Origin: Dulcicalothrix desertica PCC 7102
GTDB taxonomy: Bacteria; Cyanobacteriota; Cyanobacteriia; Cyanobacteriales; Nostocaceae
NCBI RefSeq assembly: GCF_003991905.1
Contig: NZ_RSCL01000003.1
Span: forward strand, 215,092-279,091
Length of the DNA: 64,000 bases
Direction of reading: 5' to 3'
Position 1 is the first letter of the stretch. The number at the start of each line of letters is the position of its first letter. A program made the position numbers and the translations under genes. Below are positions 39,343-44,736 of the stretch, piece after piece. The notes beneath the pieces are model-generated. The model was not told where the DNA came from. It was given only the letters and a program-made list of their open reading frames with translations, and made no database searches.

Positions 39343-39966
39343 GTGCCGCAAGTAAAAAAAGAAGATATAGAAAGGCGCCTTTTAGCATCAGCAAAACAGG
39401 AATTTTTGAAGCATGGCTTTAAAGGCGCCAACCTGAGAGCTATTGCGCTGGGAGCAAATATATCTTTATCGAATGTATATAGTTATGCCAAAGATAAAGA
39501 TGAACTTTTTAATAGAATTTTAAAAGATGTAACTCGTGACTTGGACAGAGTAGAAGAGTATTTCAAAAACTATCAGCCTCTTACAATCAACTTTGATTCA
39601 TTAGATATTCAGAAAAGTCGGATGAAGCTAGCTGTTGAATATAGTGATAGAAACCGTAATGAGCTAAATCTTTTATTCAATCTTTCAAAAGGTTCTTCTT
39701 TAGAGGATTATCCAGAAAAAATAGTTGAAGGATATTCTGAAAACTGTATAACTTTTTTAAAATACATCAGGCAGAATAATCAGGAATTAAAGTTTCAAGA
39801 GCCTTCACAGTTTTTTTTCCAAAGCGTTGCTCGTTTTGCATTAAAAGCATTTGCAGAAATGGTTAAACAAGATTTGCCTATCCAAGAAATGGAGAAAATA
39901 GCTAACGAAATTGTTGAATACAATTTTTATGGCTTTAGAGGACTAGCAAAAATTAACGATAATTAA
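39343..39966 (+). CDS. TetR-family regulator
   Basis: A 207-aa regulator. The N-terminal helix-turn-helix is RRLLASAKQEFLKHGFKGAN followed by LRAIALGANISLSNVYSYAK; the TetR-type YSYAKDKDELFNRIL segment is clear. The C-terminal ligand domain is helical. GTG start. It leads a cluster with a cupin (15 bp gap), a class IV aminotransferase and the poly-FtsH_ext gene. Two palindromic operator-like sites lie in its promoter. Confidence 0.9.
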   Translation: MPQVKKEDIERRLLASAKQEFLKHGFKGANLRAIALGANISLSNVYSYAKDKDELFNRILKDVTRDLDRVEEYFKNYQPLTINFDSLDIQKSRMKLAVEYSDRNRNELNLLFNLSKGSSLEDYPEKIVEGYSENCITFLKYIRQNNQELKFQEPSQFFFQSVARFALKAFAEMVKQDLPIQEMEKIANEIVEYNFYGFRGLAKINDN

Positions 39967-39981
39967 TACTAGGAGCTTTAT

Positions 39982-40350
39982 ATGAAAACACACCTAAAGC
40001 ATAACATTCCAAAACTTGTGATTTCTCCGTCAGTAACTCAGGAGCAAGCAGAAGCTTCAATGATGCTGCTTCAAAACTTTAACCAATGTATTATGGGATT
40101 AGCGCACTTTTCAGGCATGACCCCTTGGGAACGTCATCAAGACGACGAGTTCCTGCAAATCTTGGAAGGGAAAGTTGATGTTATAATTTTAACCCCTGAA
40201 AAAACTATTACTGAAAGCTTACAAGAGGGTGAATGTTTTGTAGTGCCAAAGGATGTATGGCATAAACAATCTTCATCGGAAGGAGTAAAGCTAATGTTTA
40301 TTACTTCCCTTGAAGGAAATCAAACATCAATGGAAGAATACCCACAGTAA
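39982..40350 (+). CDS. Cupin-domain protein
   Basis: A 122-aa single-domain cupin. Metal-binding His/Glu positions are visible: GMTPWERHQDDEFLQILEGK (motif 1) and GECFVVPKDVWHKQSS (motif 2). Small cupins often sense or bind small molecules in TetR-controlled operons. SD AGGAG lies upstream of ATG 39982. Substrate unknown. Confidence 0.85.
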   Translation: MKTHLKHNIPKLVISPSVTQEQAEASMMLLQNFNQCIMGLAHFSGMTPWERHQDDEFLQILEGKVDVIILTPEKTITESLQEGECFVVPKDVWHKQSSSEGVKLMFITSLEGNQTSMEEYPQ

Positions 40351-40375
40351 ATTTCTACACACAGAGGTTAAACCT

Positions 40376-41167
40376 ATTTTTTGGTATAATAATAAACTCA
40401 TCAATTCCCAAACCATTGAGTTAGACATTAATAATCCAGGGTTATTATACGGCGCCACCATTTTTACAACGCTGCGAGTATATGACTCTCTGGATAATCC
40501 TTTGACACAATGGCAAGCACATCTCGCACGCATTAAAACTTCCTTAAATCATTTTAGCTGGCAGCAACCTAACTGGGACTCTATACGTAATGGCGCCGTA
40601 TTAATGAAACAGCATTTTCCCGTATTGCGAGTAACAGTGTTTCCTGATGGCAAAGAGTGGATAACTGGGAGAATGCTTGCTTCTGACTTAAAAGAATTGC
40701 AAAAACATGGAATCACAGCAAGTGTAGTTCAAGATTATTATCGTTCATTACCTGGTCATAAAACAGGAAATTATCTGGCGCCAATTTTAGCGAAAACAGA
40801 TGCTGCTCAAAATCATAATTCTCAAGAAGCTATATTTATAGACGAAAAAGGAAACTGGTTAGAAACAACTACAGGTAATCTTTGGGGGTGGAAAGATAAC
40901 TGTTGGTGGACTCCTCCCCTGTCTACGGGTATTTTACCAGGAATCGCGCGCGAGTATATAAGAACTAATTTGATTCAGCAAAATCAGGTAGTGCGCGAAG
41001 ACGTTTGGAATATAAAGTTAGTTAAAAGCTTTGAAACGCTTGCTTACAGTAATTGTATAGTAGAAATTATACCTATCCATACTGTTGTTACAGATACGGG
41101 TACATTAACATATGGCGCCCAACATCCAAGTTTAATAAAGTTACAAGCATTGTTTCAAAAGGATTAA
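40376..41167 (+). CDS. Class IV aminotransferase (4-amino-4-deoxychorismate lyase-like), probable ATT start
   Basis: A ~263-aa PLP enzyme. Conserved features: NPGLLYGATIFTTLRVYDSL at the start, Lys in GHKTGNYLAPILAKTDAA, and QEAIFIDEKGNWLETTTGNL then TGILPGIAREYI. This is the PabC/branched-chain aminotransferase fold; PabC is likely, but substrate is unproven. No ATG or GTG fits the N-terminus. The first plausible codon is ATT at 40376 (IFWYNNKL), preceded by AGAGG 8-12 bp upstream; the frame also opens with TTG at 40310 inside the cupin gene. ATT initiation is rare. Stops 4 bp before the next gene. Confidence 0.85.
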   Translation: MFWYNNKLINSQTIELDINNPGLLYGATIFTTLRVYDSLDNPLTQWQAHLARIKTSLNHFSWQQPNWDSIRNGAVLMKQHFPVLRVTVFPDGKEWITGRMLASDLKELQKHGITASVVQDYYRSLPGHKTGNYLAPILAKTDAAQNHNSQEAIFIDEKGNWLETTTGNLWGWKDNCWWTPPLSTGILPGIAREYIRTNLIQQNQVVREDVWNIKLVKSFETLAYSNCIVEIIPIHTVVTDTGTLTYGAQHPSLIKLQALFQKD

Positions 41168-41171
41168 TATC

Positions 41172-42437
41172 ATGATAAGATTTAAAAAAATATTTACTAT
41201 AATAATTGCTGTTGGTTATTTGGCATTTGAAGTTAAGACAAGTTTTGCACAAACTATACCTCAAGAAATGAATAAAATTCGGCAATTAGAACAATGGCGT
41301 TACAGTCAGTTTATTCAAGAAGTCGAAAACGGTAACGTCGAGAAAGTTAATCTTTACCAAGACCGTACTACAGCAATAGTAACTCGTAAAAATGAGACTA
41401 AACACAAAAGGGTAACTTTAGTTGATGACCCTGAATTAATTAATATTCTTATAGACAAAAATATTGATATTGATGTTATACCCGAACGACCTCAACCGAT
41501 GTATGACAAACTTTCAACATGGTCATATAGTCAACTGCTGCGAGAGGTCAAAAACGGTAACGTCAAGCAAGCTATGATGTCTTCAGATGGTTACACTGCA
41601 TTAGTTTTTTATAAAAACGAACCAACACTAAAATTAGTTCATTTAATTAATGACCCTAAACTAATTAACTATCTTGTCAATAAAGTTGACATTACAGTTT
41701 TACCAGCGGGTAAAGGGACTGACATTCTAGTTATAGAATATACAGACAAGAAAACAGAAGCAAATATAAGAGAAAAACCTCCTGAAAATCAACAATGGAG
41801 TTACAGTAAGCTAATTCAAGAAATCGATAAGAATAATATAGCCAGCGTTACCATCAATCAAGACGTTTCTGAATTGAACGCAATTTCAAAAAATGGTTCA
41901 AACAGTCAATTAGTCTATTTAGTTAAAAATCCGAAGCTTATTGAAACATTAATTAAAAACAATGTTCATATTACTGTTATACCAGAAAGCACTCATGTGC
42001 AAGACAAAAAATTTGAACAGCTAAAATATAGTAATTTGATTCAAGAAGCTTCAAATGCCAATATTAAACAAATAAATGTGTATCAAGACCGTCCTGTAGC
42101 GCTTGTGACACTTAAAAATGACGCGAAGACAAAACTTGTTTATCTACCACAATATCCAAGCCTAATCAGTACATTAGTTCGGTATGAAGTAGATATTAGT
42201 GCTATCCCTAAAAAAACAGATGAGAAAGATAAGCGACTCGAACAATGGTCATATACGAAGTTTATTCAAGAAGTGAAACGTGGCGCCGTAGAACGTGTGT
42301 TGTTAAGTGCAGACCGAACTAAAGTTATAGTAACGAGTAAGGGTGATGCTAAGAGGAAGCTTGTTTACTTAGCTGATGACCCAGAGTTAATTAATACTTT
42401 GACTACTAACAACGTTGATATCTCGGTTTTGCCTTAA
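41172..42437 (+). CDS. Secreted protein of five tandem FtsH extracytoplasmic domains
   Basis: A 421-aa protein with an N-terminal signal peptide (FTIIIAVGYLAFEVKTSFAQ, cut after FAQ/T or SFA). The remainder is five repeats of ~75 residues beginning at W42, W117, W209, L284 and W359. Each follows (W)xYSxxIQEVxxGNVxxV ... DDPELINxLxxxNVDIxVxP. This is the small domain that lies between the two membrane helices of FtsH; repeat 5 (WSYTKFIQEVKRGAVERV ... NNVDISVLP) is very close to the same region of the ftsH at 42874. No AAA or protease domain is present. It should reside in the periplasm or thylakoid lumen. The gene starts 4 bp after the aminotransferase gene, so co-transcription is likely. An FtsH decoy, scaffold or regulator is possible (inference). 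Confidence 0.85.
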   Translation: MIRFKKIFTIIIAVGYLAFEVKTSFAQTIPQEMNKIRQLEQWRYSQFIQEVENGNVEKVNLYQDRTTAIVTRKNETKHKRVTLVDDPELINILIDKNIDIDVIPERPQPMYDKLSTWSYSQLLREVKNGNVKQAMMSSDGYTALVFYKNEPTLKLVHLINDPKLINYLVNKVDITVLPAGKGTDILVIEYTDKKTEANIREKPPENQQWSYSKLIQEIDKNNIASVTINQDVSELNAISKNGSNSQLVYLVKNPKLIETLIKNNVHITVIPESTHVQDKKFEQLKYSNLIQEASNANIKQINVYQDRPVALVTLKNDAKTKLVYLPQYPSLISTLVRYEVDISAIPKKTDEKDKRLEQWSYTKFIQEVKRGAVERVLLSADRTKVIVTSKGDAKRKLVYLADDPELINTLTTNNVDISVLP

Positions 42438-42444
42438 GTTTAGT

Positions 42445-42542
42445 CTTGTGGAGTGGGCATCCTTGCCCGCCCTCTATATTAGATGGGGCACATTGGATGG
42501 ACATATTTGGATGGGACGGGCAGGGATGCCCGTTCCACAAGA
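42445..42542. repeat. GGGCATCCTTGCCCGC inverted repeat, copy with both arms
   Basis: Arms CTTGTGGAGTGGGCATCCTT and GGGCAGGGATGCCCGTTCCA flank a 45-bp centre containing ATTGGATGGACATATTTGGA. The remaining spacer (to 42873) holds two GGCGCC sites and the ftsH promoter. Apparent ORFs here are repeat-derived. Confidence 0.75.
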
Positions 42543-42873
42543 TTATATTTCTACAAGATTATATTTTTACGAGATTGTGGTTTTGTAGTGTAATCCCTCT
42601 ATACATACTCAGGCGCCTACAAGGGTTGGCTCGCTAGAATATATCTTCAAGGGTTTGGTGTCCACTTAGGCGCCAAGCTTAATGTAACGAAGTTGACTGA
42701 GGGTTATAGAATTTTTTTTGCTTTTACATGAATATGAGAGCATTTTGCGATACCTTAAGATAAGTTAACATAATTCTTAACTACACCCAGTTGATTTCGG
42801 AACGCTCTGCGGTTCTCTCATAAACAAGAGGCGCCAAGGCGACAGCACAAAATGTACAGGAGGACTCACTTCG
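42543..42873. other. ftsH upstream spacer
   Basis: No gene. Three GGCGCC sites lie near 42612, 42670 and 42831. AGGAGG at 42858-42863 is the ribosome binding site for the GTG at 42874. No leader RNA recognised. Confidence 0.5.
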
Positions 42874-44736
42874 GTGAATAGTAACAACAACAATAATAAT
42901 AATAAAAAGTGGAGAAGCGCAGGGCTGTACGCACTGCTGTTTATTGTAGTCATAGCGTTGGGAACAGCGTTTTTTGACAAGCAGCCTCAAAACAGGGAAA
43001 CATGGCGCTATAGCCAGTTTATTCAGGAAGTAGAAAAAGGTAACGTCGCACAAGTAAGACTGAGTGCTGACCGTACACAAGCTATTGTTAAGTCACAAAG
43101 TGGTAATCAAGTATTGGTTACTTTGGTTGAGGACCCACAATTAATTAATACGCTTACCGAGAAAAACGTAGATATTAGCGTTTTGCCTCAAACCGATGAA
43201 GGTTTCTGGTTTAAGGCACTTAGCAGTTTATTCTTCCCAGTATTACTACTAGTAGGTTTATTCTTTTTACTTCGCAGAGCGCAAAATGGTCCAGGTAGCC
43301 AAGCGATGAACTTTGGTAAGTCGCGCGCTAGGGTACAAATGGAACCACAAACCCAAGTTACCTTTGGTGATGTTGCGGGTATTGACCAAGCGAAGTTGGA
43401 ATTAAACGAAGTTGTAGACTTCCTTAAAAATGCTGACCGCTTTACTGCTATTGGCGCCAAAATTCCTAAAGGTGTATTGTTAGTTGGACCTCCAGGAACA
43501 GGTAAAACCTTATTAGCACGTGCGGTTGCGGGTGAAGCTGGTGTACCTTTCTTCTCTATCTCTGGTTCAGAGTTTGTAGAGATGTTTGTTGGTGTAGGTG
43601 CTTCTCGTGTACGTGACTTGTTCGAGCAAGCAAAAGCGAATGCACCTTGTATTGTATTTATAGATGAAATTGACGCAGTAGGTCGTCAACGTGGCGCCGG
43701 TTTAGGTGGTGGTAACGACGAACGTGAACAAACCCTTAACCAGTTGCTCACCGAAATGGATGGTTTTGAAGGTAACACAGGTATTATTATCATCGCTGCT
43801 ACCAACCGTCCCGACGTATTAGACGCAGCCTTATTACGTCCTGGTCGTTTCGACCGTCAGGTAGTAGTAGACCGTCCTGACTACGCTGGTCGTGTAGAAA
43901 TTCTCAAAGTACACGCACGTGGTAAAACTTTAGGTAAAGACGTAGACATCGAACGTATTGCACGTCGTTCACCTGGGTTTACTGGTGCTGACTTGTCGAA
44001 CTTGCTCAACGAAGCAGCAATTTTGGCCGCACGTCGCAACCTCACCGAAATTTCGATGGACGAAATTAACGATGCTATCGACCGCGTATTAGCAGGTCCA
44101 GAGAAGAAAGACCGTGTTATGAGCGAGCGTCGTAAGCAGTTAGTAGCGTACCACGAAGCAGGTCACGCTTTAGTTGGTGCATTAATGCCCGACTATGACC
44201 CAGTACAAAAAATTAGCATTATCCCACGTGGTCGTGCAGGTGGTTTAACTTGGTTTACTCCTTCTGAAGACCGGATGGACAGCGGACTTTACAGTCGCTC
44301 CTACTTAGAAAACCAAATGGCTGTTGCATTAGGTGGACGTATTGCTGAAGAATTAATCTTTGGTGACGAAGAAGTTACCACAGGTGCTTCCGGTGACTTA
44401 CAACAAGTTGCACGAGTTGCCCGTCAAATGGTGACACGCTTCGGGATGAGCGACAAACTTGGACCTGTAGCTTTAGGGCGCCAGCAAGGTAACATGTTCT
44501 TAGGTCGTGACATCATGTCCGAGCGCGACTTCTCCGAAGAAACAGCAGCTTCTATCGACGAAGAAGTACGTAAGTTAGTAGACGTAGCTTACATACGCGC
44601 GAAAGAAGTATTAGTAAAAAACAAACTCATCCTCGACAAACTAGCAGATATGTTAGTTGAAAAAGAAACCGTAGACGCAGAAGAACTGCAAGACCTACTC
44701 GCTAACAACGACGTACAAACCGCAGCATTCGCGTAA
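42874..44736 (+). CDS. ftsH: ATP-dependent zinc metalloprotease FtsH
   Basis: A 620-aa AAA+ membrane protease that degrades damaged membrane proteins, including photosystem II D1. N-terminal run of asparagines (residues 2-10), membrane helix 1 ([17 protein letters not shown]), the extracytoplasmic FtsH_ext domain ([18 protein letters not shown] ... NVDISVLPQ, residues ~47-108), membrane helix 2 ([15 protein letters not shown]), AAA domain with GPPGTGKT and CIVFIDEID, arginine-finger region LRPGRFDRQ and zinc site HEAGH with distal Glu region. GTG start with AGGAGG. The preceding gene encodes five extra copies of its FtsH_ext domain. It may be one of the cyanobacterial FtsH2/FtsH3-like paralogues; which cannot be read. 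Confidence 0.97.

Follow-up and report, generated by a model that had tools for sequence, protein, structure and literature searches.

A lineage-restricted gene of five tandem FtsH_ext domains, without AAA or protease parts, upstream of ftsH in Dulcicalothrix desertica PCC 7102

The window analysed here is the 64,000-nucleotide stretch at positions 215,092 to 279,091 (forward strand) of contig NZ_RSCL01000003.1 from Dulcicalothrix desertica PCC 7102, a cyanobacterium with a genome of 11.4 Mb. Positions are counted from its first letter. An open reading frame (ORF) of 421 amino acids (aa) was found at 41172-42437 (+), between a PabC-like gene and ftsH, and it encodes five tandem copies of FtsH_ext (PF06480), the FtsH domain placed between the membrane helices. 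Its ATG lies 4 bases past the stop codon of the PabC-like gene, and the gap to ftsH is 436 bp; the arrangement described in an earlier note, made from the sequence alone, agreed with the ORF coordinates. Among named organisms, Calothrix sp. PCC 7716, PCC 7103, and FI2-JRJ7 come closest at this gene. The adjoining ftsH (42874-44736) is probably ftsH3, type A. The features of the locus were assigned as follows.

40310..41167, + strand, PabC-like class IV aminotransferase gene (Pfam Aminotran_4, 6.9e-39)
41172..42437, + strand, five-FtsH_ext gene, 421 aa, without AAA or M41 (Pfam, own hidden Markov model (HMM), AlphaFold, Foldseek; purifying selection)
41172..41249, + strand, putative cleavable signal peptide, residues 1-26 (by eye from sequence and alignment)
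41286..41483, + strand, FtsH_ext repeat 1 (R1), residues 39-104 (own HMM, AlphaFold), 27 of 28 FtsH3-invariant residues kept
41511..41705, + strand, FtsH_ext repeat 2 (R2), residues 114-178 (own HMM, AlphaFold), 23 of 28 kept
41787..41984, + strand, FtsH_ext repeat 3 (R3), residues 206-271 (own HMM, AlphaFold), 15 of 28 kept
42012..42209, + strand, FtsH_ext repeat 4 (R4), residues 281-346 (own HMM, AlphaFold), 16 of 28 kept, the anchor W replaced by L284
42237..42434, + strand, FtsH_ext repeat 5 (R5), residues 356-421 (own HMM, AlphaFold), 25 of 28 kept
42436..42550, no strand, inverted repeat at the stop codon of the five-FtsH_ext gene, 37-nucleotide arms, 81% complementary (repeat search)
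42874..44736, + strand, ftsH with GTG start, encoding FtsH_ext, AAA, AAA_lid_3, and M41 (Pfam)

In the Pfam search, the 421-aa protein matched FtsH_ext at 1.6e-23 with four stretches passing, and the whole protein scored 83.3 bits against a gathering score of 25.5. No AAA domain (at E up to 1) and no M41 peptidase domain were found in it by Pfam, as the earlier note had stated, whereas the adjoining FtsH protein matches FtsH_ext, AAA, AAA_lid_3, and M41. Our own HMM was built on 49 distinct FtsH ext domains and is FtsH3-type, because these domains were chosen by motif. All five repeats were recovered with it, i.e., at independent E-values of 4.6e-31, 4.3e-19, 1.8e-14, 1.2e-14, and 1.9e-27 for R1 to R5. 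The anchors W42, W117, W209, L284, and W359 given in the earlier note were confirmed, and five units were recognized by this HMM and in the AlphaFold model alike. The linkers measure 9 residues, except for the 27-residue one between R2 and R3, and the protein terminates with the R5 domain. R1 of the two orthologues described below keeps 26 and 23 of the 28 FtsH3-invariant residues. In a phmmer alignment, N74-T76 of R1 aligns with residues 62-64 of E. coli FtsH. The loop at this position has FtsH3-typical length in each of the five repeats and is one residue shorter in the genome's own FtsH3.

The AlphaFold model, computed from a three-row alignment, had a mean predicted local distance difference test (pLDDT) of 75, with pLDDT of at least 70 for 313 of 421 residues, and a predicted template modelling score (pTM) of 0.64. 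It contains five E-H-E-E-E-H-E units, i.e., two helices and five strands each. The same plan was reported for the FtsH periplasmic domain, FtsH-PD (PMC13097134). At this pTM and with 3 sequences, the placement of the domains relative to each other is unreliable. Foldseek against the PDB gave five matches at E <= 0.001, four of them FtsH or FtsHi entries and one unrelated (7xsx). The first was 2muy (4.5e-5), and the fourth was 4v0b (2.5e-4, root-mean-square deviation 1.1 A over 64 columns, TM score 0.88 on the target, for the predicted model). Further matches were FtsH-HflKC and FtsHi entries, with unrelated ones interspersed (one at 1.7e-4). The weak unrelated matches, including beta-propellers, had query TM scores of about 0.1 and were treated as noise. 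Sequence search against the PDB found E. coli FtsH entries at 0.0016-0.0058. The structure prediction that the earlier note had proposed as a check therefore returned the FtsH_ext fold, and chance similarity is ruled out by Pfam, the HMM, and Foldseek.

The only candidate membrane helix is a single N-terminal hydrophobic stretch, and the AlphaFold model has no helix longer than 10 residues. The protein does not have the two-helix layout of FtsH around the ext domain. The signal peptide claimed earlier is retained as putative; a signal-like N terminus was seen by eye in three orthologues, i.e., a hydrophobic core followed by SFA|Q, or SVA|E in PCC 7103. From this N terminus, the protein is probably exported to the lumenal or periplasmic side. 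The product is a lineage-restricted, probably exported protein in which linkers string five ext domains of FtsH3 type together like beads.

The intact five-repeat gene was found in three of the seven genus genomes, i.e., the window genome, Calothrix PCC 7716 (G006, at 90%), and Calothrix PCC 7103 (G001, at 79%), and it adjoins ftsH in all three. The orthologue protein alignment has two gaps only, of one and three residues. Over 421 codons, the ratio of nonsynonymous to synonymous substitution rates (dN/dS) among the three copies was 0.24, 0.26, and 0.33 (Fisher p 1.3e-10, 3.3e-17, and 7.3e-12) at dS of 0.18-0.43, which is close to that of pabC (0.22-0.25). The constraint sits on the domains: dN/dS of R3 among orthologues was 0.07-0.19, and that of the R2-R3 linker (23 codons) lay near 1.2-1.3 in those two pairs that had synonymous changes there. 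Because three intact copies are under purifying selection, the gene is neither a product of chance nor of misassembly; it is a real, selected, lineage-restricted gene. A misassembly or frameshift artefact was also rejected by the same five repeats being present in three genomes, two of them on NZ_AP025018.1 and NZ_KB217478.1. The possibility raised earlier of a widespread FtsH fragment did not hold, as the form is rare.

Of the other genus members, G005 has a frame with repeat 5 only, G002 two broken pieces, and G003 a short piece. G004 showed FtsH matches only and no trace of the gene in this comparison of seven genomes. In the ftsH tree, G004 is basal in the genus and the remaining six genomes are poorly resolved. 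The simplest reading is a gain after the split of G004 followed by decay in three genomes; an older gene that was lost in G004 is a possible alternative.

When 84,980 species genomes were scanned, 31 pattern stretches were obtained at 3 loci, all of Calothrix. Among 388 class genomes (E <= 1e-22, up to 4 candidates scored per genome, G001 and G006, which would have matched, evidently being outside this sample), just the gene of the window and one ordinary FtsH were found. A common bacterial protein was rejected by these two scans. The plasmid search gave no match to the protein, so its presence on plasmids was likewise rejected. In 192 family genomes queried with the 421-aa protein (E <= 1e-5, up to 9 candidates scored per genome), 11 had more than one match, five of these in the genus; each of the remaining six, out of 185 extra-genus genomes, had one FtsH_ext frame without AAA. 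PF06480 was also searched in 40 order genomes, and the matches listed were frames of FtsH size except the 421-aa protein and seven short frames (163-323 aa, by profile match only) in G201, G205, G221, and G229. Three of these seven begin less than 450 bases from a contig end. Frames of 312, 121, and 221 aa were also listed for G025 and G073. The search for multi-copy PF06480 proteins without AAA thus gave single-domain relatives and no further five-repeat form in the genomes scanned.

These relatives show that FtsH_ext without AAA is not unique to the five-repeat protein. Short proteins with a lipobox (by eye) and a single FtsH_ext are encoded in G001 and G054 (L075:3020-3292 and L079:1492-1773, both on the - strand), away from this ftsH. 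They are 64% identical, with dN/dS of 0.18 at dS 1.3. In genus g20 (loci L058, L059, and L060; genomes G025, G073, and G099), a gene with a transmembrane (TM) helix and an ext domain, i.e., TM1-ext(-TM2) by eye, lies between pabC and ftsH. TM2 is retained in G025, and a stop comes directly after the ext domain in G073 and G099, behind which TM2-like sequence is seen, most clearly in G073. The dN/dS of the g20 genes was 0.21-0.38. In G015, a TM-ext ORF lies one gene farther upstream. Because g20 and G015 also carry TM-ext genes there, FtsH3 ext pieces seem to have arisen more than once at the pabC-ftsH locus.

A different combination was found in G129, where a Ser/Thr kinase is fused to an FtsH3-type TM-ext-TM part (L068:3469-4809; Pkinase 5.3e-41, FtsH_ext 2.1e-12, TM by eye). 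A divergent ftsH (L068:1317-3218) lies 250 bp upstream of this fusion gene. A kinase of G174 is 94% identical to the G129 kinase over residues 1-303, also adjoins ftsH, and ends in WD-like repeats (by eye). Among the matches listed from the 192 family genomes, only that of G129 itself extends past residue 366 of 446. Since the G129 kinase carries the module beside another ftsH, FtsH3-type TM-ext-TM may be able to work as a docking element.

The literature searches, with subscription papers mostly outside their scope, listed neither a protein of tandem FtsH_ext domains nor one of FtsH_ext alone; the papers listed for PF06480 were surveys of plant gene families, proteomic studies, and similar work. 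The earlier view that no such protein has been described agrees with these searches, and undescribed AAA-less FtsH_ext relatives exist.

The earlier note had placed R5 closest to the adjoining FtsH, and this was not upheld. Identity to that FtsH was 60% for R5 and 58% for R1, and R1 nevertheless scored higher. By score, the adjoining FtsH ranked only 41st-44th of 49 FtsH ext domains for R1, R2, R4, and R5, and 4th for R3. By these comparisons, the repeats appear mostly closer to FtsH3 of other genera. In the domain trees, made from few columns with long branches, the repeats grouped by position across species, i.e., R2 and R3 with support of 100/100, R1 with 100/94 and R5 with 100/99 (smaller set), and R4 weakly. 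Because the repeats group by position and not by species, the array was fixed before the three species parted. R1 and R5 cluster together (96/80). Forcing R1 and R5 into one clade with four FtsH domains of the genus gave p 0.0545 in the approximately unbiased (AU) test, which is borderline. For a descent of R5 from the lipoprotein type, AU p was 0.42, which neither supports nor rejects it. A recent copy of the adjoining ftsH was rejected by score ranks and trees.

Across the family, a PabC-like gene usually precedes this ftsH. Outside the genus, 34 of 45 loci carried a pabC motif ahead of ftsH, and in 29 of the 34 the distance was roughly 53-135 bp (distances approximate). In the three genomes with the intact gene, pabC and ftsH are about 1.66-1.77 kb apart, and in G004 they are separated by 375 bp. 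The real start of the PabC-like gene probably lies downstream of the TTG at 40310. TetR-like and cupin genes are placed at 39343-40350, between a 261-aa gene and pabC, and are absent there in PCC 7103.

Between the five-FtsH_ext gene and ftsH, the spacer alignment of the three genomes contains gaps of 63 and 65 bp. The inverted repeat at 42436-42550 may be the end of a transcript of pabC and the five-FtsH_ext gene. A terminator-like match lies inside it (42453-42470), such matches occurring at chance number in the window; the promoter and terminator scans of the window stayed at chance level only. Because the PCC 7103 spacer lacks 63 bp at this site, the inverted repeat may also be a small mobile or REP-like element. 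Elsewhere, the palindrome GGCGCC occurs 131 times in the window against 5.5 expected from shuffles, an over-represented site that is HIP1-like.

The best reading, a tentative one at somewhat less than even chance, is that the protein acts as a polyvalent mimic of the lumenal ext domain of FtsH3 and tunes FtsH3-containing hexamers. Five ext domains would be presented on the lumenal or periplasmic side. R1, R5, and to a lesser degree R2, which keep the FtsH3-type signature, could occupy sites used by the ext domain of FtsH3 itself, above all on SPFH/prohibitin cages, or in the ext ring of FtsH1/3 and FtsH2/3. For R3 and R4 a second, fixed role is likely, because they drifted from FtsH3 yet vary little between the three orthologues. 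Overall, either the access of partners to the hexamers or the assembly of these would be tuned. In E. coli, FtsH periplasmic domains are hexamers within the HflK/C assembly, and Arg191 of HflK was reported to contact FtsH residues 62-64 (PMC12048511, citing Qiao et al. for the contact). The FtsH1/3 and FtsH2/3 complexes of Synechocystis have FtsH3 in common, and prohibitins were co-purified (PMC5566888, PMC11287208). The mimic is favoured because a loop of FtsH3-typical length is kept at the HflK contact position, FtsH3 is shared by two complexes, and prohibitins co-purify. Six band-7 (SPFH) matches were found in the genome, one with an internal stop.

Several observations weigh against a regulatory mimic. 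Synechocystis showed no apparent phenotype when four band-7 genes were deleted (PMC11287208). The constraint on the gene is far weaker than on ftsH (dN/dS 0.01-0.02), and the spacer is 94-96% identical where aligned (for PCC 7103 solely over columns aligned to the other spacers) against about 85-93% for the gene. The spacer is not a neutral control, because it is more conserved than the gene. Three of the seven genus genomes have only remnants, which points to a dispensable role, and G004 shows nothing. The protein could be a relic: part of ftsH3 would have been duplicated and amplified in tandem, and would now be in the course of loss, with no role of importance. The stop right after the ext domain in two of three g20 genomes fits this too. 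We consider it unlikely, and purifying selection, frames that stayed intact in all three species at dS of 0.18-0.43, and an array fixed before the species split speak against it.

The decoy, scaffold, and inhibitor roles suggested in the earlier note may each apply. Two other functions were weighed. Tandem ext domains might enter the hexameric ext ring, and a five-of-six pseudo-ring might cap or poison assembly of FtsH3 complexes. FtsH ext domains do form hexameric rings (PMC13097134, and the title of 4v0b), R1 and R5 are well preserved, and the linkers are uniformly 9 residues apart from the 27 between R2 and R3. However, 13 of the 28 invariant residues are missing from R3 and 12 from R4, no TM helix would keep the domains in the complex, and the model's domain placing is unreliable; such a competitor is improbable. 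Little credence is also given to an exaptation, in which the duplicated fold has taken on a periplasmic binding partner with no relation to FtsH. The divergence of R3 and R4 from FtsH3 with conservation among orthologues would suit it, as would the single-ext lipoproteins L075 and L079 away from this ftsH, but R1 and R5 are still FtsH3-like, and the gene lies beside ftsH in every intact genome.

Beyond the mimic proposed for this protein, a broader scheme can be drawn, which we regard as doubtful. Filamentous cyanobacteria may repeatedly detach the FtsH3 lumenal module as a free regulator, i.e., an exported five-domain decoy for SPFH/prohibitin docking in Calothrix, lipoproteins or membrane stubs elsewhere, and a kinase docking tail. 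If true, FtsH would be controlled in the lumen by dedicated proteins that imitate its outer domain, a way of regulating AAA proteases that is absent from the papers listed in the literature searches. Most cyanobacteria are reported to have four FtsH homologues, and FtsH3-containing complexes act in photosystem II repair and nutrient responses (PMC11287208). According to this recent review, the route by which FtsH3 gets to two membranes is still unresolved, and the control of FtsH expression is poorly understood. The natural multi-copy FtsH3-type ext protein in PCC 7716 and PCC 7103 is a ready probe of ext-domain binding, and it shows that one subdomain of a membrane protease can be split off, multiplied, and kept under selection as a gene of its own. 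As a separate observation, a fifth, divergent frame of FtsH size with a weak FtsH_ext match is located at G000:C39:5907-6158.

Compared with known systems, the architecture is a genus-restricted variant form of the known FtsH_ext domain. The FtsH N-domain (PF06480; 2muy, 4v0b, 7vhp, and 7wi3) is the same domain by Pfam, by predicted fold, and weakly by sequence (E. coli FtsH best E 0.0016), whereas the 421-aa protein has five tandem copies, is probably exported, and lacks TM2, AAA, and protease. Cyanobacterial FtsH3, the type A subunit of FtsH1/3 and FtsH2/3, has the ext domains nearest to the repeats, but the protein has none of its enzyme parts and is not clearly derived from the adjoining copy. 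The FtsHi pseudo-proteases of plants and Chlamydomonas are FtsH relatives without proteolytic activity, and Ycf2-FtsHi entries (8xkv, 8xqw) were among the Foldseek matches. FtsHi retain the AAA module and membrane helices, and the 421-aa protein has neither. The FtsH_ext proteins without AAA in G001, G054, G025, G073, G099, G015, and G129 likewise have FtsH3-type ext, those of g20 at the same pabC-ftsH position. They differ from the five-repeat protein in having one domain each, which is lipid-anchored, membrane-anchored (by eye), or fused to a kinase.

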